64,000 nucleotides of DNA from Sphaerolaimus hirsutus (taxonomy: Eukaryota > Nematoda > Chromadorea > Monhysterida > Sphaerolaimidae). The notes under the pieces were generated by a model that was not told the origin of the DNA, did not search any database, and saw only the letters and a list, made by a program, of their open reading frames with translations. This document shows positions 6,201 through 58,000 of the stretch, one piece after another. The DNA lies in NCBI GenBank assembly GCA_964036195.1, contig OZ038452.1, forward strand, positions 11,030,704-11,094,703, in the 5' to 3' direction. How positions within the stretch are numbered: position 1 is the stretch's first letter; every line of letters begins with the position of its first letter. The position numbers and the translations under genes are program-made.

Positions 6201-9200
6201 GTTCCGTTCCCAATTCAAAGCATACGTTTGAACGTCGATCGTCGGCTCGTCAGCAAGCTTTGCATCGGGATCGGCACCAGTTGACATTTGGTGTCGATGT
6301 CAACTAGCGTGTGGGGGCCCATTAAGCTCCCGCGAGGGACAAAATACCCCGGCGCGAATTAACCTATGAAAAGTAGAAGCCAATGCAAGTCATCCTGCCA
6401 AGTGGCCACCGCGTCAGCATCCAGCGACGACGCGCCGAGAAAGCCGCTCAGCTGTTGCATGCTGTCTTTCAGTAGCCTGCGCAAGAACGTTGACATCATC
6501 CAATAGCGAGTCGAAATGTTTTCGCAAAACGCACCCAGTAAGCAGTGCGACAGATCCGGCGGCCGTGTGCCTGCCTAGCTGCGCGCCAAGGGACAACAAT
6601 TCCGAATATTTGCGCCTGTCATCGTCGCACAGCTGCTCGTCGAGCGCCTCGTCTCGTACTGATGCGGACATCTGAAGGAAAAATCGCTCACGTTGCCAAA
6701 TTTGAGATATCAATGTTGACGGGTCGGGGGGGGGGGGTTTATCGTTTATACGTGACTAATTTGTAATCTCGACATACCGATAGAATTCTACGCGCATTAT
6801 TCTTACAGGAGAGCCTCGCACTTCTAGACTCATCTAATCCCAAAATAAACTTCTTCTCTGAATGTTCCACACCTTTTCTCTGGTGCCTCTGGGCGGCGAC
6901 AGCCAACTGCGAACGATCGTCTCGTAAATTCTCGCGGTGTGCCGCAGCAAATAATTTTCTGGACACATTCGGCCGTCGACTTTGATCAGCACGGCCCACA
7001 CTGTTAAAACTTTGACCAATGAATCGTGGAGTGTAGTGTCATCGGTAGATGTCTGAAAACAAATAACAGATAGATACCGTATTTCCTCGAATTACCCCTC
7101 CTCCTTGAATTAACCCCCCCCCCCCCCCCCGAAATACCCCCGTGTTTTCGAGCTGAGGAAAAAACAATCCCCCCTTGAAATACCCCCCCCCCCTCTGGAA
7201 TAAGGTACATCATGTATGCAAGGAAGATGATGTATTAATTGCGACCATTTTGCATCGCAGTTATAAACACCTTCCCGATCAAGTCCGGCCCCCCATTTTT
7301 TATTTTACTTCTGACGTCCTATCTCCAGTTCTAGGACGCGCCAGAAGCTGAAACTTGGGGTAGATATTGGCGCTACCCCCCTCTACTTCGCATGAACTGG
7401 AGGGGTCGCCGCGACCCCTCCAATTCAAGCGAAGTAGGGGGGGTTGCGCAAATATCTACCCCAAGATTCAGCTTCTGGCGTCCTAGAATTGGAGATAGAA
7501 CGTCAGAAGTAAAATAAAAAATGGGGGGCCGGACTTGATCGGGAAGGTGCTTACGTATACGCTAGTTTGTGTAGCGATGTACGTTTACGTCCCTGTTGTG
7601 CCCCTATATACCCTATTTGGTCACGTTTATTACCGGTTTGGGGTATGTAAAAGCGCCTTCTTTAGTATGACTTTCCCGAAAATTTCTGACGAAATAATAA
7701 CCCCCCCTCGAAAAACCCCGCCTCAAAATTTTCACTCTGAAAAAATAAACCCCCTGGGGTATAAATATGTATGTACCGTATTTCCTCAAATTACCCCCTG
7801 GGTTTATATTTTCCCTGGGGGGTAATTCGAGAGGGATGGTATTTCGAGGGGGTGGTATTTCGAGGGGGTGGTATTTCGAGGGGGTGGTATTTCGAGGGGG
7901 TGGTATTTCGAGGGGGTGGTATTTCGAGGGGGTATTTCGAGGGGGTATTTCGTGGAAATACGGCATCTGGGAACACATTTAATAAGATAACATATTTAGG
8001 ACATTAGTGCACATTAAAAATTAGCTCTGCAAAATTCTAACTTTGCAAAAAAGCAGCACATCAGCAAAATATTTACTATGGCTTAAATTACGGAATTACG
8101 GATCACAGTTGAAGAATTCGTGAAGCGTTACGAACTCTCGAGTACTGGTGCACAGCTGACTCGCACTGAAAGAACGAAGGCACACCTAAGCGAAAAAATA
8201 CAAACTTAAAAATGTAACGAACGAACCATGGCCTCATTGCTGGCCTGCACGCACAGAGATTCGGCGAGTTGCGCCAAAAAGTGCACCAATGAATCGATGT
8301 CATTCTGCGGCAGCCGGAACAGGACAGACACCGGTTGGAATGTTGCCAACTTGTAAAGCATAGTTGACAACCCGAGCGCTTCGTGGCCCAGCGGCCCACT
8401 GTTAACGTGACGCTCAAAAATGTTTCCACGTGCAAAACATACATACAGCGATGACCTTTTTAACCAATTGACACAAAAAAGCAAGTGGTACATTGTAAAA
8501 ACTCCAAAAATTGCTAATTACTTGTTAAATCACTTCTAAAGGTTTACACTTCAGTTCAATTTGAGCTTGAAGTTTTTTAATTTTTCGGTAAACGGTTGCG
8601 GTACGACACGGTAAACTTCAAAAATACCAGAACACGGTATGACACAGTAAATTTTTACAACCGCGGTAAACCGTACGGAAATTGTTTTCGAATTTGCGGT
8701 AAGGTAAACAGCAAATTCACTACTGTATCTTTACAGCTTTCAGTAAATACAGCTTCAACGGAGCAACAACACTAACCCTGCGAACGTTTCAAGCAAGGAG
8801 CGTACAAAAGTCTGCACGTAAAGCTGTCTGCGAGAGAGCGGTTGGTCGCCGTGCCGCTTTCCGGGCGGATTCTCGGGGTCGTAACGCGTGTTGCTCATCG
8901 GCAGTGTCTGGATCAAACGCTTGCTCGGTTGAAAAATGGCACAATGTTAAAATAACACATCCACCCAAAAGTAGGGTTCAAACGGAATTGACTTTTCGGA
9001 ATCGGGATAGTTTCGTTTGAGGTTTCGGGATCGGGACCGCGATTGAGGCCTCGGGATCGGGACCGCAAAATGCCGAAATATTTCGGGATTCGGGATCGGG
9101 ATTCGGGATCGGGATCCCGTTTGAACCCTACCCAAAAGCCCATCTAACAGGAGCGAGTTGAGCGATCGACTGGGCGGGCGTCTCGTGGAATATCTCGCCC

Positions 9201-12200
9201 ATGAGGCTGGCCAAGTGCGCCAGACACTGCAGCGAGTCGTGGCACAGCCCCCGGTCGCCCGACGCGTGCCGCACGTTCCGGTGCACCTGAACCCGATTTT
9301 GGATCGATTTTATGCATGGTTTTTCTACCATACTGGGTTTTGAGTCAATTTCTCGACTGTCACTTAGGAGTCGACTAATGACTGATGCATAGGTATCGCC
9401 GGACGGTTTTTTTCAAAGGTTTTAAAAAACCGACTTTAAAAACGCAATCATCGAAACCATAAAATAAAAATATCAGCTAATTTTTTTAGTACCTATGAAC
9501 TTATTTGGCAAATTTTTTGTGCGCAAGCTGCAAGCTTGCAAATTTCACATACCATGGTTGTTCTTAAAATAAAGGTGTTGATATTGTTATGTAGTGTAAA
9601 AGCATCCATTTGTTCATGCTGTTGTGTGAGCTGTGATGGCGAATAACCCCTGGACAACAAACACCGCATGGCAACTGCGCTCAGAGCCAACTGCGTGCTC
9701 TCAGTGGGCCGCAATCACCCCCGGACAACCGCGACACGCGCGCACCGCATGCCGCTGCCGGTAGGCTGCACGCCTAGACGGCGCTAATGGCGCAGCGCAT
9801 GGCTACATAACGCGAGTGCAGGGATTAGCATTCCAAAAATAGTTTATCAGAAGTATGATAATATATAATCTCAGAAAATCTATTTAAAAAACACACAAAA
9901 TACGTCAATATTAAAAAAAACCTACCATAGAAAATAGAAATCAATATGAATCAGATTTTTTATATATTTTCTTTACATAAAAATATTTTTTATTATATTT
10001 TCTCAAATAAATTCTCTCCGTTAAAACCTGGAGTAAAAAAAATAAAAGATTTATATATTTTTTAAACTATATATCTCCCGAGATTTTCGGAACGCTAGTA
10101 GCGATAAAGCGCGGCACCTATGCGTTCACACAAGCGGCTTAACGGCTGAAGTGGCGCCAGTCAGGCGCGAGCGGGAAAACGGCTCATGCATTGGCGTGCG
10201 CAGTGTGGCGGTGGCGGTTGTCCGGGGGTGATTGCGGCCCACCGCGCGCACGCAGTTGTCCACAGAGCGCAGTTGCCACGCGGTGTTTGTTGCCCACAGC
10301 TGTTGGGTCGCTATGTTAGTGTAGTATGTATACTATTTCCAGCCAATGCGCTACCACATACTTCTACAGTGTGAAACATCACTCTCAATGTATAAGCTTC
10401 CTCTTATACCATATTCAAGCACTATTCATGCCCAACTCCACAAGTCACAAACGTTCGACAAAAGGCTTAATGGGTTAAAAAACGTTGTTTTTTTAAAAAT
10501 AAAACGGTTTTTTTAAAGCTCCCAGATATGGTTATGGGACAACATATACAGGTATATATAGGATTGGAAAAAATTAGATTTTTTTTAATGACCCCGACTT
10601 AAAAAAATCGCTTTTTTGTAAAAATCGCTGGGGTCAAAATTAGTGATATATCTCACGTTAATCGCCTCTGAGGGTAATAAAAGACATGTAAATTGAGGCG
10701 CAAGACCAGTGCACAAGTTGCCCCGGTGCACAAGTTGCCCCGGTGCACAAGTACTAATACCGTGCTAAATTTTATTCACGCAGGAAATACAACAATTTTT
10801 TACATTTAAACTTCAAAATTACTTACTTTTAAGCTTTTCCACAGCTCTACAGTACTTATATTACCTCAGAAAGGATAACTGTGCACTGGCTATCAATTTA
10901 CGGGGGTGTGTCGGTGCACAAGTTGCCCCGGTGCACAAGTTCTTATACCCCGTGCACAAGTCTAATCAGCGCACAAGTATGGCCCCCGTACTTGTGTACC
11001 GGGCCGGGCAGATTCTTGTGCACCGGGCGCATGGGCACTTGTGCACCGGGCAGTTGTCAGCACCCCATCCAGTGCACAAGGATGGGGGCCACTTTTCCAT
11101 CACTACTAATGATGGCAAAAAAAAAGATTCGAAAATTCGAAAACGTTTTCGATTTTTTAGTTACGCGGTGAAAAAATACATAAAAATCGGGGGGGGGGGG
11201 TCAAAAGATTCAAAATTCAAAAACGTTTTCGAATTTTTTGGTATTTTTCGCTGAAAATGAGTAAAAAACGCAGAAACTTGATAAAAATATCATATCCACA
11301 TTAGGGTTCAAACGATATATCGTATCGAATATCGGATATCGACCATTTTTTAATATCTAATATCGAATATCGATATCGAAAATTTTGCAAAAATATCGAA
11401 TATCAAATATCGATATCGAAAATTTTAAAAAAATATCGAATATCGACCATTTTTTCGATCGATCGAACCTGTATTGTGTCCCCAAATTTACTTTTCATTT
11501 TCATTTTGAGATGTTTATGGTTGATCTGATGTGCTTATAGTATTGTATTTGATGAGTAAAAGTACAGTATTTATAATGTCATTGTTGTTGGAGTGCTAAA
11601 TTTGAAGCCAGAAAACGCTGATATACTTTTTTTTGCAACATGCCCTTAAGCAATTAGGTTAGGATGAACTGTAATATCTACCAATTGTTATTTGTCTGAT
11701 ACACTTTGATTCATCATGTTTTTCTTCTATTTTCTACCATTGAGTGATGTAAAGCTTGTTAAACTCACTTGCACCATTCAAATTTCAGTAAAGAGATGAT
11801 TAAACATGTGTGCAACCACATGAAAATACAATATGCCACTTGAAATATGCCTTGCTATACCAAAAGCATATCGCAATATCGAATATAGAAAATATCGAAA
11901 TATCGAATATCGACCATTTTTCAATATTGAATATCGAATATCGATATCGAGGTTCCATATCGTATCGATATCGAATATCGAGTTTCAGAAAAAAATATCG
12001 AATATCGAATATCGATATCGAAAATTTTGAAAAAATATCGAAAAGTCATATCGTTTGAACCCTAATCCACATTGATTTTTTGTAGCAGCTTAAGCAAAAT
12101 ACGCATGCGGTAACAGCGGTAAGGCTGTAAAACATGTTATGCATTCAAAAGTCAAAACTTTTTTCGGAAAAAATTTGAAATTAGAAAAATCATTTCAGAG

Positions 12201-15200
12201 AAAAACACTTAAAATAAAAATATTTTTTTCCGGAGGGTTTGCCATTGTTAATCACTACTTATAACTATATTTGGGAAGTATGCAACTGCCAGGTGCCCAA
12301 GTGGTGCCCAAGTAATGCACAAGTGTGCTCAAGTAAATATCCACCCGGTGCACAAGTATCCACCCAGCCCGATGCACAATTACGGGCACTATACTTGTGC
12401 ACCGGGTAGACTTGTGCACGGGGTATAAAAACTTGTGCACGGGGTATAAAAACTTGTGCACCGGGGCAACTTGTGCACCGGGTTAACTTGTGCACCGGGG
12501 CAACTTGTGCACCGGGTTTACTTGTGCACCGACACACCCCGTAAATTGATAGCCAGTGCACAGTTATCCTTTCTGAGGTAATATAAGTACTGTAGAGCTG
12601 TGGAAAAGCTTAAAAGTAAGTTATTTTGAAGTTTAAAAGTAATAAAATTGTTGTATTTCCTGCGTGAAAAAAAAGTTCATCGACCATTTGCAATTTTGTT
12701 TTCAAAAAATGCATGTTTTTGCTGTGAACACAATAAAAATGATTTTTTAAGTGGCCATGGATAGGGTGTCAACAAAATTTTTTTACGGAAAACGGAAACG
12801 GAAAAATTTTTTCAGCGGCCGGAAAACGGAACGGAAAACGGAAAAAAAATTGCACTTGGCGGAAAACTGAAACGGAAAAAAATTTTCAGCAGCCGGAAAA
12901 CGGAAAAAGAGGCCGGAAAAAACGGAAACGGAAAACTCAAATTTGCACGGAAATGGATAAACTTGCTGAAATTTGCTGGAAAACGGGTAAAATTTGCTGA
13001 AATTTTGCTGGAAGTGGAAAAAATTTGCAGTAATTTTACTGGAAACAGAAAATTTTTCACATCATTGACAATCTGCATGAATTTTTACCAGTTTGGCTAA
13101 TCAGAAAACAGAAAGTTAAGCCAGAAAAAGGGAAAATCGAGGCGGAAAATGGAAAAAAAGGTGGAAAAAAATGGAAATTGAGGCAGAAAACGGAAAAAAA
13201 GCGGAAAAACTGAAAATTTAGCCGGAAAACGGAAAATGAGCCGGAAAAACGGAAACGGAAAAAAAAGTTGCCGGAAAACGGAACGGAAAACGGAAAAAAA
13301 TTTCAGCAGCCGGTAAACGGAACGGAAAACGGAAAAAATTTGCCTGCGGAAAACGGAAACGGAAAACGGAAATTTGACACCCTAGCCATGGATGCATTTC
13401 CATTCATGTTTGATATGCAAACAAATAGCAAAACAATGTTTACTTCCCCCAATGATGCACGCGGAGGGGGGTGAGCGGGGGGGGGCTGCTTGTTTACGGG
13501 GGCCGGCGAACGGGGGGGGGGGTGGCTCAGCCCCCCCTAAAATTGTTCCCTATATAGGGACGGAAAGGCGTTTTGGCGCTCGCGCCATACAACAGCGCCA
13601 CGCCATGGCGCTATTGGCGTTGGCGCCAGCGCCATGAACCGCTTAATATGTATGTAAATATGCATACATATACAGCGAAATTCTCAAAAATGTTTTCATT
13701 TCAAAGGATTTGAGTTTAAAGGGGCCGATCCACTGAAAATACAATGCATTGGGAAGAAATTGCGCGCTTGCGCTGCAGCCCCCCCCCCCCCCCCCCCCCG
13801 CGCCCCCCTGGATACGTCCTTGTGTGATGTAAAATATAGCCATAGAATAGCTGTGGAGCCATGGGATAGCACTATAAATAGGTGGTTATTTCTGTCACAA
13901 ATACTCACTTTTTGTCGACTTCTTAAGCATATCGCCTTTTGTCAAATGACTTCAAGTCAAGTTTTGCATGGAATAGTGCTTAAAAAAGTTATAAGAAAAG
14001 GCTAATACATTGACAGTGATGGCTGGATATTTTATACTACACTAACATATCATGGCTTATTATTACGCAATAACATGAACAAATGAAAGTTTTCTCACTA
14101 AAAATGCCTCAAAACCAATGAAAACAACCACCAATCGTAATGTGTATGTGAAATTGCGCGCAAAAAGCTTGCAAAATACCTAGTGCATAAGTACAAAAAA
14201 TTTTGGCTGCTGTTTACAAAAAACGGTTTCGATGCCTCTGTTTAAAAAAACAACAACGTTTTTTTAAGAGGTAAAAAAACACGTGCCATCTAGGGTTCAA
14301 ACGGGACCGCGGTCCCGGTGTCCCGGTACATGGTTCGGCAAAAAGTCGGGACTGGGGCGGTCCCGGTCCCGGTCCCGACCCCCCAGTCCCGGTCCCGGTC
14401 CCGACATTAGAAAATTTCTGGTCCCGGTCCCGGTCCGAAAAACTGGTCCCGTTTGAACCCTAGTGCCATCCCAAATGAGTAGACATAAAATGGATATTTT
14501 TGACAGAAATCACAACTTAAACTGCTATCCCTTGGCTCCACAGTAATTCTATGGCTATATATTACATCAAAAAGTACCGCCAATTGCCTGACATACATGT
14601 AATTGTTGACTCATAATCATATTTGTGAACTTTTGGAGAGAAAAAACAACGTTTTTAGACCGGATCGTGAAAAAAACGTTTTACCCCATTCCTAATACTA
14701 CCATGGAAAATCGAAGCATGGAACATGGAACACAATTTTAAAAATCGCTGAAAAACTCCAGCCATCCAGTCACATGAATCCCCAATACGAAAGATAGTTA
14801 CTTGGATAGATAGATATGGAGATAGTTGGATGCGTATCACTTCAGTGAATACTAGGATATATTTATATTTTTCGACACACAAAAAAGGCATGAATCGGGT
14901 GTAACGAAATCACACGGATTTCATAGTCAGATATATTAAATTCCAGGCAATGCATGATAAACTATTTCCAATTTAAAAAACGTTTTTTTATACGCATAAT
15001 GCCAAACCGCCTTAATCATACGATGTTTCACGAGTGTAAACACCATTAGATCTACACGCACCACGGTTTCTATTTTCATATATTTTAGTAAATAGAAAAA
15101 CGGTCTTATTTAAAAAAGGGTTTTCCACAAACGTACCTCAAAGAAAAAGGCGACAACCTTTTCATCGAGCAGAACATCGGCCCAGTGCGCGGGCGGTCTC

Positions 15201-18050: not shown

Positions 18051-18258
18051 TTTGGTCCTACTAAAAGATGATGATCACATTAGACAGACGAAACATGTCT
18101 AGGCGGGTGCACGGGTTATTTTGACGCCGTAACTTAAACTCCTCAGTTTTTACTTGGCAAAAAGTTGACAAATCGCAGTAGCAACTGAAGTTGTATAGCT
18201 CAACGATGACATTCCGATCCGCAAATAAAATAGGCTCGTCAGTTCGAAGTTGTCATAA

Positions 18259-18264
18259 TTTATT
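18259..18264 (-). terminator. Candidate polyadenylation signal of ATP5F1C
   Basis: AATAAA on the minus strand about 350 nt after the ATP synthase gamma stop codon, inside the 560-bp gap before XPO4. This gap (18051-18611) has no repeat or other gene that I can see. Confidence 0.35.
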
Positions 18265-18611
18265 AAAATTCTATTTAGTTTGTTTAGAACTGAATGCTGT
18301 AATAAATCAAAACTAGTGAAGAAACATAGGACAGTGACATGCTCCACACGAGTTCATACGTAAATGATCAATCCACCATTTAACCTTCACACCTAGATTC
18401 ATTACATCATCGATCAAAATAATAATAAATATATTGATGTACGATATTTGTCTAAAATTCTTCCTAGCGCGCAGACAAAAAAAGCGCGCGGTTCAAACCC
18501 AAGTTTTAAATTTCAACATAAAAACCGACTCGATTAAAATGGCTGCGCGCAAACAAATCTAAATAGGAATCACTCAAACAGGGCCTAGACTTGAGGTGTG
18601 AAATGTGCAAA

Positions 18612-21600
18612 TCAACCCTCCAGGGCCACGGCGCCGCTGATGATCTCGATGAGCTCGGTGGTGATGACCGCCTGCCTGGTCCTGTTGTAGTAGATGGTCA
18701 ACTTGTCGATCATCTCGCCCGCGTTCTTGGTGGCCGCGTCCATGCTCGTCATGCGAGAGCTGTGCTCCGCTGTGGCTGCTTCCTTGAGCACGTAGTACAG
18801 CAGGCTGGCCAGACTGGGGAGGGGGGGGGGGTGTAAATGTTTGCATGTTTCGACGTCGCTGCGACGACATGTATTTAGTTCACTTTGAATTTATTCAATA
18901 TAATAGCTTTATAAACGCTAGTTTTCAACTGAAATCTGTTAAGTTGATAGGGATAAAAAAATTGATTCTGATAAACTCAAATGCGTTCAGGGCTGATTCA
19001 AGAGTTTTCGAAATTTCGAGCGCGCGTTGAAAACCAGCGTTGAAATAAAAAACAGTAAAATTTTATGCATTTTATATAGTCCATGTGTAACATAATTTTT
19101 GCTAACGATTTGTCGATAATCAGATTCAAGGACGTATCCAGGGGGGGGGGGCGGGGGGGGCTGCAGCCCCCCCCCCGTTCCCGGGTGAGACCGGAAAAAA
19201 TCGAGGAAAATGCCGTTTTTGGTACTAATTTCCAAGGTACTATGTAAAAATTTTGCGCGCGAGCGCGCATTTTTCCACCGTCCACCGGAATTATCGGAAA
19301 ATCGAAACCTGCACCCTCAAACATCTATAAAATACGTTGAATTTCGTGCCTATCACTCTATATGTATGTATATTTACATACATATCGGCGGTTCATGGCG
19401 CCAGCGCCAACGCCAATGACGCCATGGCGTGGCGCCTACGAATGGCGCCAGCGCCATGGCGCCATTCCGCCACTGTATAGGTAAAATTTTAGGGGGGGGG
19501 GCTGAGCCCCCCCCCCCCCGTTCGCCGGGCTCTGTAAACAAACAGCCCCCCCCGCTCAAAAATCCTGGATACGTCCCTGATCGGATTTGATGCTGCGGTC
19601 GAGAAAATTCGCTTGACAACAGCAGTGCTGTCATAACAGAACATGAACTGGCACAATTACTTCTAAATGGCAGCATTTTCTCGCTATATAGCACACATAT
19701 CCTACATGAAAAACCTGAGTCTCCTAAAATCAATAAATACGGACACTAGAAACTCCACCTGAACTCCAAGTAACTCCTGAGTACATTCTCGTCGACGCTG
19801 TCGTACAGGGTCATCTTTTCTGCGTTGCGCACCACGTCCATAGAGAAAAAGGGCAGCTTCATTGTCGTATATGACACGACCGTCCTGAGCCACAAAGAAT
19901 GTGAAGCATTGTTTATGCGTGGTTGAATTGGGATGTGTAATAATGTTTTAGAGACCCTCCTTTTATTTTAAAAACTTTCTTAACAGTTTAAAAAAAGATT
20001 TTTTAAGCTAAGAGATAGGGTTCAAACGGGATCCCGATCCCGGATCCCGTGAAATTCCGGGATTTTGCAGTCCCGATCCCGATCCCGAAAAGTTTCAAAT
20101 CCCGATCCCGAGAAACTCCCAAGTCCGGGATCCCGATCCCGGAAAAAACAGTAAAATTATATAAAGTGAAAAATGAGGTGAAAAAACGAAAAACCCCCAG
20201 CGTCCATTTTATACCACGTTGCTGGCATCCAACAGTGTTTTGAGACCTTTATGAACACCTGTGGATGCCAGAACATTGGCCAAAATCTCTATCCCAAGAC
20301 CCCAATCCCGATCCCGAAAAAATGCCAATCCCGATCCCGATCCCGTGACCCCAATCCCGGCCAATCCCGATCCCGAAATCTCAAAAAACCAATCCCGATC
20401 CCGATCCCGAAAAGTCAATCCCGTTTGAACCCTACTAAGAGACAACAAGTCTCAGTACCTTGTGATGTTTAATCCCATAAATCAAAATTTGTATTTTTTT
20501 TCAAAATTTGACGCATCTTTCAAGATTACATTTTTTTAAATTTGGCGCTCCCCGTGGAGCTTGTAGAATATTAACCAACAATTAGGGTGTCAAAAAAATT
20601 TTTTTACAGAAAACGGAAACGGAAATTTTTTTTCAGCGGCCGGAAAACGGAACGGAAAAATTTGCACTTGGCGGAAAACAGAAACGGAAATGGAAAAAAG
20701 TTTCAGCGGCCGGAAAACGGAAAAAGAGGCCGGAAAAACGGAAACGGAAAAATCAAATTTGCACAGAAATGGAAAAACTTGCTGAAATTTTGCCTGAAAA
20801 CAGATAAAATTTGCTGAAATTGTGCTTGAAGTGGAAAAAATTTGCAGTAATTTTGCTGGAAGCAGAAATTTTTTTTACATCATTGACAATCTGCATGAAT
20901 TTCTGCCAGTTTGGCTGATCAGAAAACAGAAAGTTGAGCCAGAAAAACATAAAATGAGGCGGAAAAATGGAAAATCGAGGCGGAAAATGGAAAAAAGGCG
21001 AAAAAACTGGAAATTGAGGCGGAAAACGTAAAAAGGCGGAAAAACTGAAATTTTTGCCGGAAAACGGAAAATGAGCCGGAAAAACGGACACGGAAAAAAA
21101 AGTTGCCGGAAAACGGAACAGAAAACGGAAAAAAATTTCAGCAGCCGGAAAACGGAACGGAAAAAATTTGCCTGCGGAAAACGGAAACGGAAAACGGAAA
21201 TTTGACACCCTACCAACAATCAACCCACCGTATAATCGGTGGCTGTACCGGGATCAATTCGACGTTGAGACGTAAACACCCATATTAGAAGTAAAATGAG
21301 AAGTGAAAGGATAATTGAAATGTGAAATTATAAATGAAAAGTTTACTTAACTTAAACGCTATATAACTTTTTACATCACTTCACCGCTCATTTTTCACTT
21401 CAAATATGGTTTTTTAAATTCTCCATTTGCTGAATTGGCACCACAATTAACAAAACAAATGTCTCAAAAGCTCACTTGAATCTATTAAATATGACTTCGC
21501 CCTGTTTGAAATCAAATCCGCAGTTGAGAATCGCCTCGGCCAGATACTTGGCATCAGCGAAAGTGGGCGGGGCGCGGCCGATTTCGTTGATCGAAGCGAT

Positions 21601-23531: not shown

Positions 23532-24263
23532 CTCGGCTACTTCAAAGGGCGCCACACAGGCACGACCAAGTAAGGTTTTTTATTTTTACGACTCAAACAA
23601 TGGTACCTGAAAAATGTTTTACACGACATAAAAGTAGCATCCCACAAATATTTATTTTAGCAAGTAAACGAGGGAATACACGTATATCAATAAAGAAAAA
23701 TAACAGAAATATACGGTGAGTGTTCCCACTGTTGGATGGAAGTAGAAGGAATGGTTGAAGTATTGACGACGTGCGGGACATAACTTATACCAGTCAGTAT
23801 TTGGATACCCTCTTTGGAAACCATTCAATAGTTGCGAAATCGGAGACAAGACTGTCGCGGAAATGCCACGGTCACCATTTTGGCATGGGAAATGAGCCTA
23901 AAGCACCTAACAAAAAATCTGTGTAAAAATACATCTAAAAAGATAACATAATCCGACTATTTTACCACACTTTGACGATCGGTTTATAATATTAACAAAA
24001 TTTGCTGCGCAAAATATAGGTCGGCGTAATCTGCTTGCAGCAGACGGTACATATTCACATTTTTCCCGCCTATATCAGTATCCAAAAACTCGAAACGCGT
24101 TCAATAAACTCCTTGACACCCATTGATTTGACCCAAATCAGAAAACCTCCCCGCAGTGTGAAAATTCAAATTCAAATTCGTGAAAATAGAAAAAAATCGG
24201 GGGTCAGTCTCGTGCTCACTCATCTACGACAGTCGGCAGTGTCGTCTTGGCTGGTCGAGCGGC
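23532..24263. promoter_or_regulatory. Divergent 5' region between ATP5F1C and LIN54
   Basis: The ATP5F1C start (minus) and the first visible LIN54 ATG (plus) face away from each other across 732 bp. This stretch has no recognised repeat family and no conserved coding segment, so it probably holds both promoters and 5' UTRs. No TATA box could be assigned confidently. Confidence 0.45.
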
Positions 24264-27200: not shown

Positions 27201-30200
27201 GCTGCAGCCCCCCCCCCCCCCCGCCCCCCCCTGTATACGTCCTTGTAGGACGGTACCTTTAAAAATACAATTTTGGAAAAACTGCGTAGATCGGTACTTT
27301 ATAAGATACAAAAGCTGAAAAACCTTGTAGATCGGTACTTTTAAAATTTCCGTAACTGCATTTTGCTATTTTTTCGGATTTTTCGACTCCCTAAACCTCA
27401 AAAAAATTTCGCCCCCCCACTTTTTGTAATTTTTTAATGCACTTTTCTTTGGGGACCCCGAAAATGGTCCTAACTCAAAATTTGAAAAAAATTGTAGATC
27501 GGTACTTTTAGAGGCACACCCTTCAATTGTTCACATGTGCAGTCTGCACCGTTTTCTCCGATTGTCAGGTACTGCGATTGTTTTGCCAATGGTGAATTTT
27601 GCGACGGGTGCAACTGCAAGGACTGCTACAACAATTTGGATCATGACTTCGAACGAAGCAAAGCGATTAAACAGTGCCTGGAGCGTAATCCGAATGCATT
27701 TCAGCCCAAAATTGGTGAGTCGTTGGTAAATAAGGGACAGCTTAGATAAAAGCCAACTTCGACTATAGATATCGAAAACTGATTGTCTCAACTAGGGACG
27801 GCCAAGGGTTTTTTTCGAAGGTTTTTTCAAAATAAAAACCGTTTTATTTTTTTTAAACTGACCATCAAAACCGTTTAAGAAAAACCTTGGCCAAATTTTT
27901 TACTACTAGGCACTAGGTATTTTGCAATTTTTTGCGCGCAAGCGCGCAATTTCACCTGCACTTTGTGGTGGTTTTCATTGCTTTCGTAGCATTTTTAGCA
28001 TTAAATGTTCCATTTGTTTGTGCTAATGGCGCTCCACACGCTGGAAACGCTGGAATGTCAACTGGTTTGGAGTCAACTCATTTTAGCTGAATTTAGGTAG
28101 CAGGATTATTTTCAAGTGCATATGTGGCAATGTCAAACAGGAATAAATATTGCCATGTGTATTTGAACATGGTTTTGCGACCCATAAACGAAAATCTTGA
28201 TGAAAACCATTCGACCAGTTGACATTGGGATGTCAACTGATGTCAACTGCACCATCCGGTTTTCATCAAGATTTCAGTTTATGGGTTGCGAAACCATGTT
28301 CAAATGCACAAGGCAATATTGATTCGTTTCGACATTGCCGCATGTGCACTTGAAATTGTCATGCAACCAAAATTTGAGCTAAAATCGAGTTGACACTGAA
28401 ACCAGTTGACATTCCAGCGTGTGGAGCGCCATTATGTTGTAATAAGCCATGATATGTTAGTGTATATAATATACAGCTAATGTGCCCCCACATACTTGTA
28501 CAGTGTGAAACACCACTGCCAATGTGTGAGCCTGCTCTTACATCCTTATTTAAGCACTTTTCCACACCCAACATCACTTGAAGTCACGAATGTTCGACAA
28601 AAGGTGATATCCGTAACAAGTTGACATAAAACAGATATTTTTGACAGAAATCACCACTTTTAAATATGCTACCATTTATCCATTCAAGTATCCATTTAAA
28701 TATGCTACCATGGGTTGATAAGCCATCATATGTCAGTGTAGTATATAATATTGAGGTAATGTGCTTCCATGTACCTCCACAGTGTGTAACTTCACTCCCA
28801 AAGTAACAACCTCCTTTTATAACCTTGTTTCATCACTATTCCGTGCCAAACTTTACCTGAAGTCACGAACATTCGACTATAAGGCGATATACGAACGTAT
28901 CGACAACAAAATGTATATTTTTGGCACAAATCACCACTTATAATGCTATCCCATGGCTCTAAAGCCATTCTATGGCTATATATAACATCACAAAGTACTG
29001 TCACCTATCTGATTTACCTGTATCTGTTGACTCATGATCATATCTGGGAGCTTTTGAAAAAAACTGTTTTATTTTAAAATAAAACCCTGTTTTTGAAAAA
29101 AGAAACCCTTTTTGTTGAATAAAAACCTTTTTCGGCCATCCCTAGTCTCAACTAATTAACTGAAAGTTTGAGTTGTATTGCAGCGCCGACGTCACGCGGT
29201 CGTGCCGAAGGCGAGCGCGTCCACCTGAAGGGGTGCCATTGCAAACGGTCGAATTGCCTCAAGAATTACTGCGAGTGCTATGAGGTGCGTCAGTTTTTCT
29301 CAAAAGTATGTCCTGTTCGTTGAGCTCGATTCGAATTTCCAATATGTCGATCATTGTGCGGGTGCGTTCCCTATGGGTTCACAACCGCAAGCAACGCTGT
29401 GCCCAGCGGTCGCTACACTGGGGCATGCCTAATACGCACATCCGCCCGTTAAGCACATTTGCCCGTTTTTCACTTGACACTTTTTCAAGTGATTTTCAGA
29501 TATGAGTGAAGTGAAAAAAAGTTGCGCAATGACAGAAGTGAACTCTGAAAATAACTTGAAAAAGTGTCAAGTGAAGCAACGGGCAAATGTGCGTAACGGG
29601 CAGATGTGCGTATTAGTGCACCCTCGCTACACTCCCCAGTGCACACAAGTCCCCCGCTGCAGGCGCGCGTCGCCTGCAGCAACCGATGCAAGTGCGTCGG
29701 CTGCTGCAACGTGGACTCGAATCGCTTCGACGGCGGCGGCGGCCAGCCCGGCTCCAGCTTCGTCGGCCTCAACGCCGCCAGAAGCCAATTCAGCCAGCGA
29801 TCTGGCGCCCACTTTCCCAATTCCGGTGCGCTCGGCTGTTTGTATCGCGGTTACTGTTTGGGGCGATAAGAGATTTCATTTTAATGTCGATATTCATCAC
29901 CCGATATTTTTATAAAATTTTCTGATGGCGACGTGACGGGAGACATGCTCTGTATTTGCATTTGCAGCCAATGTTGAGAAGGAAGAAAGGAAGGAAAATC
30001 GCAAAAAGTATAGGTGAAAGTTATATTGAAATACGTGTGTAAGGCGCTCCACACGGTGGTTGACGCTACTTTTTAGAAGTCGATTGAGTCAACTCAGAGT
30101 CAACTGTTTTAAGTATAACTATTTTTAATTTTTTACCTGTGTTGATTAAGAAATATTGAGAAGTCGATTGATGTAGAATGAAAGAAGGGGATTTTTTGGA

Positions 30201-32721: not shown

Positions 32722-32727
32722 AATAAA
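32722..32727 (+). terminator. Candidate polyadenylation signal downstream of LIN54
   Basis: First plain AATAAA on the plus strand past the LIN54 stop, followed by a GT-rich stretch. It is about 1.05 kb from the stop and lies beyond two repeats, so the true site could be nearer with a variant hexamer. Confidence 0.25.
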
Positions 32728-36240: not shown

Positions 36241-36265
36241 CCGCATGCGGAAAGCGCGGCTCTAT

Positions 36266-36426
36266 GGGCCCACACGCTAGTTGACATTGACACCAAATGT
36301 CAACTGGTGCCGATCCGAATTCAAAGCTTGCTCACGAGCCGACTATCGGCGTTCAAACGCAAGCTTTGAATTTGGAACGGAACCAGTTGACATTTGGTGT
36401 TGATGTCAACTAGCGTGTGTGGGGCC
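36266..36426. mobile_element. TTGACA palindromic element (PIF/Harbinger-like)
   Basis: 161-bp palindrome GGGCCCACACGCTAG ... CTAGCGTGTGTGGGGCC; 3-bp TSD TAT. About 95% like 6158-6320 by eye in the arms. Confidence 0.83.
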
Positions 36427-36605
36427 TATGGCGCACAGCACACTGCAAAGTGTAACGATCGGAACCGGACGTTTTAATTTCCGCCCGGGTAGAATACTAA
36501 AGTCGATTCGGACGATTTTATTTACCAAACTTCCCGTTACACTTTGCAGTGTGCGGTGCGCCTATTTATACGCCTACAGCAAAATACGGCCACTCGTGCG
36601 TGCAG

Positions 36606-48480
<11,875 letters not shown>

Positions 48481-49016
48481 AGTTATTGTGATGGTTTTTT
48501 TCTTTTTTTTCTTCAGGGTTAGAATTTTCGAGAGACGAATGGATTTTACGGCGTAATGTTGACAATTGTACTGAGCACTGCTTGTTTTTGTTCCTATGGC
48601 TCATGTTTTATTTCCTTTGTTTTTTCCAATGTTGAATTGATTGAGGTTTTTCTGAGGTTAATTCTTTTCTAGTGCCTTTACGTATATCGTGAACTACGCA
48701 TAATCACGATCCAAATGTACCCAAATGTTACAGTCGTTCCAAAGATTGATTACAAATCAAAATGAGGTCATTTCCAGCACTTCTCGGGCGTTTCATTTTA
48801 CTACCGTTTCTGCCGAAATGTGTGTCACTTTTGCTGTTTGGACGCATCAAAATTATGCTGTTTAATTCATAAATCGTTATCAACCGCATCACTTGGCTGA
48901 CATGGGTTCACTTATTAGAGGTGTTGCCCCCCCCCCCCACAATTAGACCCCATAACAGTGTCACAACGGTCCAAATATTTCGCAGTTTTTGTCGGCCACG
49001 TGGTGTGTTATGTGAG
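48481..49016. other. ACSL 3' flank
   Basis: Presumed ACSL 3' UTR and terminator region. T-rich, with no canonical AATAAA in the first 500 nt; no repeat recognised. Confidence 0.35.
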
Positions 49017-50060
49017 CAACGATGGGTAAGTTCTCCAAAAAAAAACACTTTCTGTGTTTTGAGTTTTTCAAAAATGAATACCTGTTTCTTGAGTTTTTTC
49101 CAAAATATTTGAGTTTTCCCCCAAAAAATTCTGATTTACAGCATTTCGATCTGGAAACAGTGGTTTTCTTATAAAATATTGGTTTTGCACATGTTTTATC
49201 CCCACATAACATTTGTGTATTCATTCAAGTGTCAAAAAAGTCCATAAAAATGCCCACAATGAGGACATCAACATCACAACACCAGCAACAAAATGCTCAG
49301 AAACAACAATTTATGCAGTACTCCAAAATCCTTCAATGGATGTGCACTGTATGGAAGACTACAGAATTGATTTGAACTACAACTACCATATTACCTCGAA
49401 ATACCCCCACGGGGGTTTATTATTTTGTCAGAAAGTTTTGTAAGGATCATAGAAAATAGTAGACATTTCATACCCAAAACAGGTTATAAATGCGTACAAA
49501 CAGGATATATTTGAAATAAACATGTAGATAGCTACACAACCTAGTACAGTCTATGTGTAGCTGCGATGCAAATTAGCAGTAATGAATACACCATGTACAT
49601 TGGATACATGATGTAAATCATCCCGGAGGGGGGTATTTCGAGGGGGGCTTATTTTTTCACCAGTCCATTTTGAGGGGGGGTTAATTTGAGGTAATAAGGT
49701 ATACTTAAATGTTGAAACTTAAATTGTCAAATCCACCATGAGATGTGCAAGCCATCTTTAATTTCTTTTTTGTACCATTATAAAATATGAATAAATTATG
49801 TACATATTTACATACTATACATGCATATCTTATCTTGTTTAGTTTAACTGAATTAATGTGCATTCAACCGCTTCGCTGAAAAAAAAACACAAAAACTCAA
49901 AAAACTTTTCTGTGTTTCCGTGTTTCTGTGTTCTCCAAAAAAAAACTCATTTGAGTTTTGAGTTTTTCAAAATTTATGAGTTTCCGTGTTTCTGTGTAAA
50001 ACAAAAACACAGAAACTCAATGAGTTTCTGTGTTCAATTTCTGTGTTTTTTCCATCGTTG
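49017..50060. mobile_element. CAACGATGG element with CTCAAAAAAC arrays
   Basis: Ends CAACGATGGGTAAG and TTTTTTCCATCGTTG; interior words GTTTCTGTGTTTT and AAAACTCAAA. TSD TATGTGAG at 49009-49016; its partner is at 51540-51547, displaced by the foldback element inserted between. Hosts 49386-49699. Confidence 0.85.
49386..49699. mobile_element. CCGTATTTCC-type TA element
   Basis: TA-flanked; ends CCATATTACCTCGAAATACC and complement of CCTTATTACCTCAAATTAAC; nested in 49017-50060. Confidence 0.8.
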
Positions 50061-50062
50061 TA

Positions 50063-51539
50063 AACACCTTCCCGATCAAGTCTGGCACCCCATTTTTTAT
50101 TTTACTTCTGACGTCCTATCTCCTGTTCTAGGACGCGCCAGAAGCTGAAACTTGGGGTAGATATTGGCGCAACCCCTCTCTACTTCGCATAAATTGAAGG
50201 GGTCGCGGCAACCCCCTACAGGGTGGGTCGCCGAGTGCAAAAAAAAATTGCAGCTTTTTTAGTGTCCCACACAGGTCCCGCCCCCACTGATTTCTTTCAC
50301 TGCGGGTGCCGTACCTCCACATGTGGGAGGGGTATAAATCTAAAATTTTGGGGATGTGTCGCCAACACCCCTCCCCTACTATACACTGGCCAGGCGGTCT
50401 TTGGCAACTCACCACAGTGTGGGGTGCAAAGTTTAAAATTTATGTAAATGTTACTGTCCCACACAAGTACAGCATCCAATTGAATTTCAAAAAATGGACA
50501 CTTTTGTGTGGTTTTAACACTAATGTGGTTGACAATGTGAAATAAGCATGAAATATCCTCTAAAAAATACTTTATCCGACCTAAAACTGCCCACCACATG
50601 AACCCCTCCCCCCAAGTGGGTGACAAAAAAATCACTTTTTACAACTTTTTCATCAGACACTAGAACTGCTGGTTTACAATGATTTATATAGGAGGGTTAA
50701 AGGTTTCAAATTGTGTAAAAAACCTTACCTCAAAAATGCCTTCATAAGAAAATTTGCTGGGGGTGAATTTCAAATCGTGAATTTTGCTTTTTTTTTGTTC
50801 CTGCAATGATGTCATTTTTACAATTTGAAATTCACCCCCAGCAAATTTTCTTATGAAGGCATTTTTGAGGTAAGATTTTTTACACAACTTGAGACCTTTA
50901 ACCCTCCCCTATAAAGTATTGTAAACCAGCCGTTCAAGTGTCTAATAAAAAAGTTGTAAAAAGTGATTTTTTTGTCACCCACTTGGGGGAAGGGGTTCAT
51001 GTGGTGGCCAGTTTTAGGTCGGATAAGATATTTTTTAGAGGATATTTCATGCTTATTTCACATTGTCAACCACATTAGTGTTAAAACAACACAAAAGTGT
51101 CCATTTTTTGAAATTCAATTGGATGCTGGACTTGTGTGGGACAGTAACATTTTAATAAATTTTAAACGTTGCACCCCACACTGTGGTGAGTTGCCAAAAA
51201 CCGCCTGGCCAGTGTATAGTAGGGGAGGGGTGTTGGCGACACATCCCCAAAAATTTTAGATCTATAACCCTCCCACAGCTGGAGATACGGGACCCGCAGT
51301 GTAAGAAATCAACCGGGGGCCGGACCTGTGCGGGACAGTGAAAACGCTGCAAATTTTTTTCACGTATATGGCGACCCCCTCTATAGTGAGTCGCCGCTGC
51401 CCCATTCATTCATGCAGGGTAGTGGGGGGTAGCGCCTATATACCACCCACGTTTTAGTTTTCCACCCCTCCCGCAACCGGAGATATGGCCTGCGAAGTAA
51501 AAAAAAAAATAGGCGGCCGGACTTGATCGGGAAGGTGTT
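50063..51539. mobile_element. 1.48-kb foldback TA element, copy 1
   Basis: Ends AACACCTTCCCGATCAAG and complement, TA on both sides. The halves are inverted copies pivoting near 50790 (AAATTCACCCCCAGCAAA on both arms). Open frames on both strands mirror each other and resemble no protein I know. Confidence 0.88.
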
Positions 51540-51547
51540 TATGTGAG

Positions 51548-52005
51548 ACCTCAAATATTTCAAAATAGTTCGGAGTTCTAGATTTACTTTTTCAATACAT
51601 TTTTTTCTTTAAAATATTATTTAGTTTATTCGGTGTATTTCAGTATTGAAAATGCGGAATTTTTGTTTGGTGTACCCATGGCCAGGGACGTTTCAAGTAA
51701 ATATGTATTTAGCCGATAAATTCAATTGTGGCATGTATTTAGTTAACACAGAAATTATTATCGCTTTCGCCGGTTGCGACCGCCTCCCCTGGATACATCC
51801 TTGTGCACGGCAGAAATTGTACAATGTATTTAGAAAGGTTTCTTACAATGTGAATATTTTGTGGTAACTGCTTCAAAATGTAAAGCAACAGAACGGTACA
51901 TATCCACACTGCCTCCACGTTGGCACTGTTATACTCACTGAACCACACTCGATCGCATCGACTATTTCCATCACAAAAGCAACGACAACGATATCAGCGA
52001 AGGGC
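51548..52005. other. FBXO21 5' flank
   Basis: AT-rich; no repeat with clean ends. Presumed promoter and 5' UTR of FBXO21; no core element assigned. Confidence 0.35.
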
Positions 52006-55000
52006 ATGTCGGCGGCGGGGGTGCAGCAGCTGCCCGTCGAGGTGCTGGTGCAGATCCTGGCCCAGCCGGCGCTGTCCTGCCGCGACGTGCACAATGCCGC
52101 GCTCGCGTGCTCCAAGTTCGCCGCCGCGCTCCAGTGCAATGCGTTGTGGAAGCGCTTGTTTGAGAACCGGTTGGTGTCTGCTTGTTTTTCTTCTTGCACT
52201 GTGTGTGTGCTTTTCTGTGGGTCAGAGCGTTGTTGGTGGTGGGCGTGGGTCGGTGCCCAAGTAAAGTGCCCGTACTTGTGTACTTTACTTTTGCACCGGG
52301 CGGCTGTTTACTTGGGCAACACTTGTGCATTACTTGGGCATGGTTGCGTCGGGCCGGGGCGGCCGGGTTTACTAGGGCATCGCACTTCGCATGACATTTT
52401 ACACGACATTTTCCATGACTTTTGACACTTCGCGTGACATTTTACAGGGCATTTTCTATTACTTTTGACACTTCGCGTGACATTTGACTTTTGAAGGGCA
52501 TTTTCCAAGACTTTTGACACTTCGCATGATATTTTACACGGCATGATATTTTACACGGCCAGGCCGGTGCACAAGTAGACCCCCGCCGGTGCCCAAGTAA
52601 ACATCCGCCCAGTGCCCAAGTAAAGAGCCGCCCGGTGCCCAAGTACGGACACTTTACTTGTGCACCGGGCGTACTTGGGCACCGGAAATTATACTTGGGC
52701 ACCGGGCGTACTTGGGCACCGGTTTTACTTGGGCACCGGTTTTACTTGCGCACCGGCTCAGCGCCGTTGGTGGTGTTTCTCTGACCCTGTAGAATGCTGA
52801 ATCGACCAGAAGTTTTGTGAAATTTCTTGTAGCATGACATTTTACAGGGTCTGTATCTGGCCTGGAACGCGAAAATGCACTCCGGTGGTAGGTCCCACAG
52901 TGTCCACAACTGGGTTTTCCGATGCCTGGCACCCAATCGCTCTTGATGTCGTTCCATCTAATAATAACGCTGTGCATCTCCCTCACCGAACGGTTGAATT
53001 AACAAGTCACTCAACACGTGCAGCTTCACGACGGTCTACAACGTGTACTTCAAGCAGCGGTGGCACATTCGGCCGCCGTTCGGCGCGTCTTTGTCCCAGT
53101 GCGACTGGCGCCGCATGTTGCGCACGCACGCGCAGTTGGACAGGCAGCTGCGCACCTTGCTCGAGAACGAGGTCCAGCCGGGCTATTTGCACAGGCAGAC
53201 TGCCACCGTGCTGTATAGCTACTTTGACAGATGGTACGTCCAAGGGGCAGTTCCCGAAAATTGAGAAGTGAGAAGTAAAACGGCAAATGCGAAGTGAATT
53301 TAGAAGAAAATTGGCAAATGCGAAGTGAAATGGCAAGTAGATTGGCAAAAGCAAAGTAAAAAAGAAAAGGTAATTTCCCATTCGCTTTTGCCAATTCCTT
53401 CTCAATTCACTTCTCATTTCACTTCGCATTTGCCATTTGACTTATCATATCTCAATTTGCGGAACTGGCCCCAGGGGGCAGTTCCAAGCCCAGTAAAGTG
53501 TAAAGTCGACTGTCAAATGTCATGACAAATGCGAATCGAAACAAAAAGAAAAGATTTCGGAATTTCTGGAATTTCGACACCTTGTATGACATTTGTCAAG
53601 GGTTTGTGACATTTGTCAAGGTTGTATGACATTTGTCAAGGTTTTGTGACATTTGTCAAGGTTGTATGACATTTGTCATGGCATTTGAAACTTCACTTAA
53701 AACTTTACAGTGCTTTGAACTGGCGCCACTTCAACTCTGTTTATTTTGCATCTGTAATGGCAGTGTTAATTCGGAGTGTCGCCTTTCAGGATTCGTGTAT
53801 TTGCGGCGGAAATTCTGAACGACCCCATGGAATTAACTCCGATATTCGCTATTCTAGTGGGAATTATGCACGAGCAGCCGTGGTCAGTTGCTATATAATT
53901 GGTCACTGTCATTGATAGGTTCCCCCACACAAACCACTTTTGTACAGGAACATGAACCTTACAATGAAATTCTACGCGCGCCAGTGTTTCGACCGGCTCA
54001 CGCCGATCCTGTGGTCTGAAAAAATTTTGAATGCCGACAGTCTGGAAGATGGTAGGTGCTTTTCAATATCATTATATTCAGAGTTGAGTTCGGGGGTCCA
54101 ATAGATAACCGGGTTTCGCTAGATAGTTAGTATAGCTGCAGGAAACGTTCAGAAATTTATTTTAAAGCTAGAAAAGAACTAGTTTAGTTTAGTTTATTTC
54201 TGTTTGCTCCGATTTTGTATGAGACTACTAATGAAGTGCCATTATACATGAATCTCATCGGATCCTAATGTCGTTTGAACTTTTTTCGTTTTTAGTTGTT
54301 AAATTTTTTACCAGACTAGGGCTGGGCGGAGTTTATTAACGTAAATAACGTTTTCTCAATAACGCCAGTTTCGAAACCTCAAAAAAAATTTTTTCGCAGC
54401 TGTCTGGCTCTTGTCCAAGTGGCTTGGTCTGAGCCCTGAGAACGACACGTTTATTGCCCGAGGCAGCGAGCAGCTGAGACAGTGCCTCGATGAAGCAGCC
54501 CACCACGTTCTGTTGGTGCTGCAGCACAGCGACAAAGCGATCGCTGACAAAATCGCTTTGCTGCCACACAATCAAGGTCATTTGAATCTGAATGTAGTTT
54601 TCTTGTCAAGTATTATTGTTTGTGCCGATTAGCGTTCCAGAAATGTTTTTAGAACATATAATCAAATATAAATCTTAGAAACAATCAAATCTCTCTGAAA
54701 AAAAAACAGAGAAAAAATGAGAGATTTTTTGTATATTTTCTTCTCATAAAATCAAGATAATTGAATCTGGTTAAAATATAAATATAAATTCAGGATTTTT
54801 TATAAACACCTTCCCGATCAAGTCCGGCCCCCCATTTTTTATTTTACTTCTGATGTCCTATCTCCTGTTCTAGGACGCGCCAGAAGCTGAAACTTGGGGT
54901 AGATATTGGCGCAACCCCCCTCTACTTCGCATGAATTGAAGGGGTCGCGGTGACCCCCTACAGGGTGGGTTGCCGAGTGCAAAAAAAATTGCAGCTTTTT

Positions 55001-58000
55001 TAGTGTCCCACACAGGTCCGGCCCCCACTGATTGGTCCAGGTTTATACCCCCCCCCCCCCACCTGTGGGAGGGGTATAAACATAAAATTTTGGGGACGCG
55101 TCGCCAACACTCCTCCCCTACTATACACTGGCCAAGCGGTCTTTGGCAACTCACCACAGTGTGGGGTGCAAAGTTTAAAATTTATTAAAATGTTACTGTC
55201 CCACACAAGTACAGCATCCAATTGAATTTCAAAAAATGGACACTTTTGTGTTGTTTTAACACTAATGTGGTTGACAATGTGAAATAAGCATGAAATATCC
55301 TCTAAAAAATATCTTATCTGACCTAAAACTGCCCACCACATGAACCCCTCCCCCAAGTGGATGACAAAAAAATCACTTTTTACAACTTTTTCATCAGACA
55401 CTTGAACTGCTGGTTTACAATGATTTACAGAGGATGGTTAAAGGTTTCAAATTGTGTAAAAAACCTTACCTCAAAAACGCCTTCATAAGAAAATTTGCTG
55501 GGGGTGAATTTCAAATTGTGAATTTTGCCTATTTTTGTTCCCACAATGATGTCATTTTTACAATTTGAAATTCACCCCCAGCAAATTTTCTTATGAAGGC
55601 ATTTTTGAGGTAAGATTTTTTACACAACTTGAGACCTTTAACCCTCCCCTATAAATTATTGTAAACCAGCAGTTCAAGTGTCTAATAAAAAAGTTGTAAA
55701 AAGTGATTTTTTTGTCACCCACTTGGGGGAAGGGGTTCATGTGGTGGCCAGTTTTAGGTCGGATAAGATATTTTTTAGAGGATATTTCATGCTTATTTCA
55801 CATTGTCAACCACATAAGTGTTAAAACAACACAAAAGTGTCCATTTTTTGAAATTCAATTGGATGCTGGACTTGTGTGGGACAGTAACATTTTTAATAAT
55901 TTTAAACTTTGCACCCCACACTGTGGTGAGTTGCCAAAAACCGCCTGGCCAGTGTATAGTAGGGGAGGGGTGTTGGCGACACATCCCCAAAAATTTTAGA
56001 TCTATACCCCTCCCACAGCTGGAGATACGGGACCCGCAGTGTAAGAAATCAACCGGGGGCCGGACCTGTGCGGGACAGTGAAAACGCTGCAAATTTTTTT
56101 CACATATATGGCGACCCCCTCTATAGTGAGTCGCCGCTGCCCCATTTATTCATGTGGGGTAGTGGGGGGTTGCGCCTATATACCACCCAAGTTTTAGTTT
56201 TCCACCCCTCCCGCAACCGGAGATATGGCCTGCGAAGTGGAAAAAAAAATAGGCGGCCGGACTTGATCGGGAAGGTGTTTATGTCTAATATTCAAAACAT
56301 ATACATCTCCCACCATTTTTGGAACGCTAATGGGAATTGATTCTAATCTGCCACTTTCACTAATGGGAATTTCACTTTAGATTTTGACTGGCCCGGTTCC
56401 AGCGCCCAGTCCATAGTGAGAGCGATTTTGCAAGTGATGTGCACCATGAATCTAAAGGGCGACTGTGAGGATGACAGCGACATTAGGCCGCACAGGTGAG
56501 TTGACGTCGCCCTCTAAATTTTACTTTTTCACGTGCTCAAATCGAATATTTTTTCAGGCTGTGCCCATTGCGCTCCCTGTTGAATCAGTCAGCAGCTAGA
56601 CCTATTAGTGTCTGCATTATTTTGATCTTGTTGGCGAAGCGGCTGAAACTGTCAATTCAGCCAGTAAACATGCCGAACAGGTTTTTAGTTCGCTTCAAGA
56701 TCAGCGGTAATGGGTGAGCTGGGCAGTTGTGATCACAGTTGTTAAAATGTATTTACATTTACTCGAAAAATACATATACTCGAGTACTTTGTAAATATAT
56801 ATACTTTAAAAAAGTACCTGTACTCACCTGTACGCGTACTTTTGAAAAGTACACGTGTACAGAAAATGTAAATCGCTAAAAATCGCTCTCACATGTGAAA
56901 AAGTACTAACTTTTATATTTTCCAATTTTACATATTGTATTTATGACGAAAAGTACTCGCTGTTACATTTTCCCCATTAAAAAGTACCCGATTTTACATT
57001 TTCGTGTGGAAAAGGTTATTTACTCACTTGTACTCATGAGTACGGGTAAAAAAAGTATTTCACAGAGTTTTGTGATTTTTCAGAGATGGTGCTGTTTGGA
57101 CGTATGTTGATGCGTGGAGGCAAGCAGTGATGACCGAAGTGGAAGTGATTCGCTGGCACACCGCGAACATCGGCGGCGGCGCGCAGCAGTTAGGTGAAGT
57201 TCTTCGCGGACCTCCGGCTGCTATTATCGACGTTCGTTTTCCCTTTTCCGCCTTTTCGGAAACTCCGCCCCCCCCCAAAAAAAAGAAACAATTGGGGCGA
57301 CTTTTAGCCCAAAACTAAGTGGACTTGTCGACTTCTTGCCCATTTTTTTGCATTTTTCTCAAAAAATGTCAAATCTGACACTACATTTATGGGCATGTGA
57401 GGTCAAAAAATTAATGGAAAATAGTGAAAAATGTACGTGAGTAGCCCCAGATGACGTTTCCGGGATTAACTCGAACTTTTCAATATTTTCAGACTTGTCG
57501 ACTTCTAGAATTGGGCGCCTCAATTTCGCCGCCTCGTCGCAGATTATCGAGCGCATCGTGAACAACGTGCTGACCGCCGACTTCGACTACTCGCCCAACG
57601 AGCGCCTGTTCATGCGCGCGACCGAGTTCCTGCTGCAGCTGCACGAGTGGCGCAGCGCGACGCAGCGAGCCACGCCGCATCCGCACGGCGGCAGGGCCGG
57701 CTGGCGCATCAAGAGGGAGCTCGCCGGGTGGTACATCAACGGCGGCACCAATTTGGATAGAGTTAGTGCAGTCACGATTGGGGTCCAAACGCGATCCCGA
57801 TTCCCGAAAAATTCCGGAATTCCGTCCCGATCCCGAAACCTCAATCCCGATCCCGATCCTGTAATTTAAAAAGCCAATCCCGATCCCGAAAAGTCAATCC
57901 CGTTTGAACCCTAGTCACGATCCATCAAATCACACCGTGTGAAAATTTGGGGTGGTCTTTGTGATGTCAGGTAGAGTCGATGTTGGCGCCGCTGCGTCGC

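Follow-up and report, generated by a model that had tools for sequence, protein, structure and literature searches.

The window analysed here is a stretch of 64,000 nucleotides from the nematode Sphaerolaimus hirsutus (contig OZ038452.1 of assembly GCA_964036195.1, positions 11,030,704 to 11,094,703), which belongs to an assembly of 348 Mb in 762 contigs. It contains matches to exons of AMP-binding, oxoprolinase and F-box proteins, and also nine small elements (Table 1) bounded by inverted tips and filled with hexamer arrays, which are of three types, ATCCCG, ATATCG and GTCCCG. An earlier reading of the window, made from the sequence alone, had assigned the arrays and their coordinates correctly and had described all nine elements as beginning with the 13-bp tip TAGGGTTCAAACG; seven do so exactly and eight nearly, while the ninth, at 36826, is worn and starts with another tip, TAGGGTTGGGACG, differing at three bases, its far end at 37015 being a degraded version of the tip.

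Tips and target-site duplications in the window

At up to two mismatches, TAGGGTTCAAACG marks 16 ends in the window against 1.76 expected, and the maximum among 100 shuffled sequences was 5. Six elements (8972, 11302, 14291, 20016, 38846 and 43713) carry it exactly at both ends, the element at 44991 has one mismatch in its right tip, and that at 57779 has two in its left tip. Short terminal inverted repeats of the TAGGG or CAGGG kind are the rule in the hAT superfamily, and TAGGGTTCAAACG is of this kind. Another feature of the superfamily, an 8-bp target-site duplication, is found at eight of the window elements: a blind search for inverted 12-mers flanked by exact 8-bp direct repeats returned 22 pairs, compared with none in each of five first-order shuffles, and eight of the 22 are the TAGGGTTCAAACG-tipped elements, in agreement with the earlier count of eight perfect duplications in nine. 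The remaining pairs are further transposons or matches within arrays. Rfam and tRNA scans of the window gave no matches.

One tip stands before three nearly exclusive hexamer arrays

Genome-wide, the exact 13-mer occurs 15,514 times (7,752 + 7,762), against 8 times (5 + 3) for the reversed control. To see what follows it we read 99 of 100 listed 13-mer places on contig C1, giving 98 distinct exact ends, to which the window added 14; this sample comes from one end of one contig, so that rare types could be missed. Among the resulting 112 distinct ends (loci L002-L005 omitted, identical ends counted once), 59 are followed by ATCCCG arrays, 28 by ATATCG and 25 by GTCCCG, and none by anything else. 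A wider pass over all fetched loci, covering 118 exact ends, gave 59, 33 and 25, respectively, and a single end with fewer than two motifs in 100 bases. In the whole genome, 8,581 tips continue with GGAT and 3,241 with ATAT; the remaining 3,692 include GTCCCG ends and altered ends, and most of them would be expected to read TAGGGTTCAAACGGGAC. The elements are short, tip-bounded and present in many copies, with no intact gene in the subset that was translated, as is usual for miniature inverted-repeat transposable elements (MITEs).

The separation of the arrays holds along whole elements. We paired 57 elements, 49 from contig C1 and 8 from the window, and set the type of each by its commonest motif; the set omits the composite pairings L013:293-6856 and L042:588-2055 and keeps a nested element in L023, whose motifs are counted twice. 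The ATATCG-type elements contain 523 of their own motifs and none of either other kind, the ATCCCG-type elements 718 of their own with 24 GTCCCG and one ATATCG, and the GTCCCG-type elements 240 of their own with two ATCCCG and one ATATCG. Since only the commonest motif was used to call the type, the low foreign counts are a result and not an artefact of the assignment. Thus, one 13-bp tip has three nearly exclusive hexamer arrays behind it, which bears out the earlier claim of a shared tip over differing interiors. The same reading had called the hexamers unrelated, and this does not hold: in the direction leading away from the tip they spell CGATAT, CGGGAT and CGGGAC, only one to three bases apart and all of the pattern CG-N-N-A-Y, whose CG doubles as the final dinucleotide of the tip.

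The left end carries a palindrome and the right end does not

One left and one right end can be recognised in 54 of the 57 paired elements, and in one of the other three the two ends can be told apart by eye once a 1-base deletion is allowed for. Directly behind the tip, the left-end consensus of every type has a perfect palindrome of its own motif, ACGATATATCGT from base 11 in one type and CGGGATCCCG and CGGGACCGCGGTCCCG from base 12 in the others, and the right-end consensus of the three types contains no palindrome of 8 bp or more. The motifs have a direction as well, 657 to 61 in ATCCCG elements and 221 to 19 in GTCCCG elements; the two directions of the ATATCG motifs overlap and cannot readily be distinguished. 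Duplications are perfect in 45 of the 57 elements, but the duplication itself served as a criterion for pairing.

In every type, conservation extends past the 13-bp tip into end sequences of its own, and a few right-end bases are nonetheless shared between types. A 10-base run is common to the ATATCG and ATCCCG right ends, a length reached in 1 of 20,000 shuffles when the ATATCG spelling with G before ACTTTT is used (11 copies have G, 9 C and 1 A at this place, and the C spelling shortens the run to 8 bases). The runs shared with the GTCCCG type are of 6 and 7 bases, as long as those in 94 and 44 of 20,000 shuffles, respectively.

ATATCG arrays occur behind a second tip

The end had been described as fixed, and in this respect the picture changes. 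Besides the 3,241 TAGGGTTCAAACG ends, ATATCG arrays stand behind 1,185 ends with the tip of the worn element at 36826, TAGGGTTGGGACG, which is followed by ATAT in these 1,185 cases and by GGGA in none within the 348 Mb. A search with a piece of the ATATCG transposase gave 118 matches, and among the 20 that were fetched there are four distinct ATATCG elements with TAGGGTTGGGACG (L088, L089, L094 and L098, with L099 a near-copy of the last), one element with GGA and one with CGG in place of the GGG of this tip; in most of the remaining stretches no tip was seen. All 14 ends with GGG, GGA, CGG, CGA or TGA at that place of the tip have ATATCG arrays. In an unrooted tree of ATATCG interiors, built from 18 of 23 rows, a split with support of 100/98 sets the four GGG rows, together with the GGA row, apart from the remaining 13. 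The CGG row falls within the latter group and the CAA rows by themselves require four changes; the tips are thus clustered in the tree but did not change in one clean step. With two tips on the ATATCG arrays and one tip across the array types, the tip has changed within one type and stayed the same across types. At L042:588-2055 an ATATCG element with the TAGGGTTGGGACG tip is nested inside an ATCCCG element, a configuration useful for relative dating.

Transposase remnants

The hAT dimerisation domain (PF05699) has at least 28 matches in the genome, and the 3' side was read for 27 of the 28, in 26 loci. Four matches lie in three elements, on contigs C2, C6 and C9, where the C-terminal part of the protein is followed by ATATCG arrays and the tip; these elements are 995, 3,188 and 1,389 bp long, and 3, 7 and 7 of the 8 bases of their duplications are equal. 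The ATATCG elements of the window retain the C-terminal tail of the same hAT protein (tblastn E of 7e-6 to 0.04), and the ATATCG type is thus a member of the hAT superfamily, as the sequence-only reading had proposed for all the elements. For the GTCCCG type membership is suggested by one remnant, the homologous tail EKAETFIFLQKALRQLMYQY found in 1 of 12 elements (28.1 bits, with 20.4 bits for the best of 100 shuffled queries), and the ATCCCG type would belong to hAT as well. The ATATCG and GTCCCG remnants agree in 12 of 20 residues, which hints at a separate transposase for the GTCCCG type.

The other PF05699 loci are of several kinds. Fourteen of the 26 show neither a hAT domain followed by an ATATCG array and the tip nor a CCGTTT array with the tip TTGAC(A/G)CCCTA; in one of these, L079, an ATATCG left end bearing the 13-mer unchanged lies about 800 bases downstream and is probably a separate insertion. 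Two candidates were set aside. A match to the Ets domain within the ATATCG interior lies on the other strand from the hAT remnant, and a 4.3-kb pairing in L013, considered as an autonomous copy, contains a different element that has inverted ends of its own and a weak, sub-threshold match to DDE_Tnp_4. Within L013:293-6856 one left end is accompanied by two right ends, which lie 2.2 kb from each other and share their flanking 8-mer; the copy is duplicated or composite and has another element nested in it.

Other repeats and genes of the window

A second hAT family is present at 12762-13384 and 20583-21212, with the tip TAGGGTGTCAA, arrays rich in AAACGG (the hexamer of maize Ac) and perfect 8-bp duplications; elsewhere in the genome it accounts for eight of the 26 hAT-domain loci read, with L071, which has a variant tip, in addition. 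Further pairs with 8-bp duplications and A/T-rich interiors occupy 4668-5323 and 27793-29144, with the tips TAGGGTTGG and TAGGGAYGGCC, respectively. The ATATCG element at 11302 is a nested insertion, enclosed at 11107-12250 by a pair with tips like TAAYRATGGCAAA and the duplication ATCACTAC. Tandem arrays of units like GTGCACAAGT and GGTGCCCAAGT lie at 10709-10752, 12292-12531 and 52564-52756. An acyl-CoA synthetase-like gene probably has exons on either side of the elements at 43713 and 44991, which are thus probably intronic; the AMP-binding matches are at 41790-42161 and 45508-45915, with a weaker one, below the cut-off, at 46966-47322.

Table 1. Array-bearing elements of the window and the transposase remnants within them.
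Feature	Position	Strand	Remarks
ATCCCG-type element, 159 bp	8972..9130	-	right end on left side; duplication CCCAAAAG; two GTCCCG copies besides the ATCCCG array
ATATCG-type element, 763 bp	11302..12064	+	duplication ATCCACAT; inside 11107-12250
hAT transposase C-terminus remnant in 11302 element	11599..11634	+	tblastn E 0.039 (weak alone)
GTCCCG-type element, 172 bp	14291..14462	+	duplication GTGCCATC
ATCCCG-type element, 419 bp	20016..20434	+	duplication CTAAGAGA
Worn ATATCG element, other tip TAGGGTTGGGACG	36826..37015	+	imperfect duplication (CTGGGG common to both sides)
ATATCG-type element, 939 bp	38846..39784	+	duplication CGGCGCAT
hAT transposase remnant, two pieces, in 38846 element	39206..39327	+	tblastn E 7e-6 and 0.004
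ATCCCG-type element, 163 bp	43713..43875	-	right end on left side; duplication AGCACCAT
ATATCG-type element, 694 bp	44991..45684	+	duplication ATTTACAC; right tip TAGGGTTCGAACG
hAT transposase C-terminus remnant in 44991 element	45258..45293	+	tblastn E 0.008
ATCCCG-type element, 135 bp	57779..57913	+	left tip with 2 mismatches; duplication GTCACGAT

Discussion

On balance, we think it probable that this genome holds at least three related hAT lineages in which the putative binding arrays and the tips have turned over separately. The elements would be small, apparently non-autonomous MITEs of these lineages, with the 13-bp tip as the place where the transposase cuts and the hexamer array as a set of sites for the BED-type DNA-binding region of a transposase particular to each lineage. 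The palindrome behind the left tip may load two DNA-binding domains first, and a right end that has no palindrome would then give the element its direction. In each lineage the array, including the palindrome, would have been built from a different but related hexamer, most likely through a shift in transposase specificity together with multiplication of the array by duplication. Separately from this, part of the ATATCG lineage has another tip.

Several observations weigh against this explanation. The 30 ATCCCG elements examined yielded no hAT remnant, and in none of the types did a complete transposase come to light; the three ATATCG elements with a hAT domain hold only a C-terminal part of the protein. 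Second motifs do occur, since 27 of the 112 ends hold one or two copies in their first 150 bases, and 25 of these 27 are GTCCCG in ATCCCG-type ends. Furthermore, when the motifs were masked and the types compared over 70 bases (25 random pairs per comparison, excluding elements shorter than 150 bp or with more than one mismatch in the duplication), none of six tests was significant, with 5-30% of the nulls scoring as high; the greater part of each array thus probably arose afresh. The wholesale replacement of motifs behind the end that was envisaged earlier is, as a replacement in place over a kept scaffold, supported for the few shared right-end bases and not over the 70-base stretch.

One alternative is that a single loose transposase, recognising CG-N-N-A-Y, moves all types, the arrays being alternative spellings that were fixed in founder elements and spread by copying. 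The identical tip, the closeness of the hexamers, the common end layout, the shared right-end bases and the lack of a separate ATCCCG transposase among our finds speak for it. Against it stand the small number of mixed arrays, the agreement of the remnants of two types in only 12 of 20 residues, and the second tip, which precedes ATAT 1,185 times and GGGA never. We regard it as rather unlikely.

Another is that the 13-bp tip is convergent and that the types are separate hAT families with nothing else in common, as the sequence-only reading had allowed in the event that each array type proved to have its own longer terminal repeat and its own autonomous element. Each type does have its own longer conserved ends, two remnants can be distinguished, and tips can differ within one array type; yet the two remnants are homologous, so that an inherited tip is favoured over convergence, and the left/right layout and some right-end bases are shared. 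An inherited tip appears to fit the sequences better, and convergence is in our view quite improbable. That the arrays are simple-sequence expansions of a passive kind, playing no part in transposition, is very improbable, for although their length is highly variable and in the L011 element a block of some 398 bp is repeated, all three types have the palindrome behind the tip and a left/right polarity, and motifs are present even in an element of 100 bp.

A further step can be proposed, albeit tentatively and with more doubt than conviction: a hAT group may have rewritten its own binding code at least twice in one genome, with its specificity and thousands of arrays moving to new hexamers while the order of the parts stayed, from a palindrome on the left through an array with a direction to a right end that has no palindrome, and with tip and array as separately exchangeable modules. 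How a transposase can shift its DNA specificity while thousands of copies need the old sites is, in our judgement, an open question, and the present set of elements may record how transposase and docking sites change over time. With three array types and two tips available in many copies, the paths of change, the minimal end layout and a possible reading of tip and array by different parts of the protein become testable.

No description of one tip with several nearly exclusive arrays turned up in the open-licence literature, which is not proof of absence, and the 13-mer and two related strings had no match there. The nearest systems resemble parts of the arrangement. In maize Ac/Ds, an 11-bp tip is common to Ds classes with unlike interiors, and the subterminal hexamer AAACGG is bound cooperatively by the transposase, some Ds1 copies being without it (PMC3260210). 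The short shared tip over unlike interiors and the subterminal hexamers are features held in common with our elements; unlike them, in the part of that account drawn on here, one hexamer is discussed for all Ds classes, whereas three nearly exclusive hexamers stand behind one tip in S. hirsutus. AAACGG itself does not form an array behind TAGGGTTCAAACG and occurs here with the tip TAGGGTGTCAA. Work on CGG-binding proteins and hAT-19 indicates that hAT DNA-binding domains vary widely in motif (CGG, CGC and AT-rich), also within one genome, that of the coelacanth, and that for four hAT proteins the motif corresponds to sequence in their subterminal regions (PMC8097297). Such a diversity of hAT-type motifs matching subterminal regions is like that proposed here; that work is a study of proteins, and the portion of it used here does not describe one tip with several arrays.

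The closest parallel in end layout is the hAT transposon Hermes of the house fly, in which a quasi-palindrome that follows the left tip without a gap is occupied by a pair of BED domains and, in the section of the study relied on, none is seen on the right end (PMC10368747). Our elements likewise have a motif palindrome behind the left tip, none on the right end, and short subterminal repeats, known in this case from sequence. As far as the same section goes, Hermes differs in having few AAGT-type sites of one motif, in contrast to the long hexamer arrays of our elements. The ends described here nevertheless appear to fit the Hermes scheme in three spellings, suggesting that it is the layout that has been kept rather than the letters.

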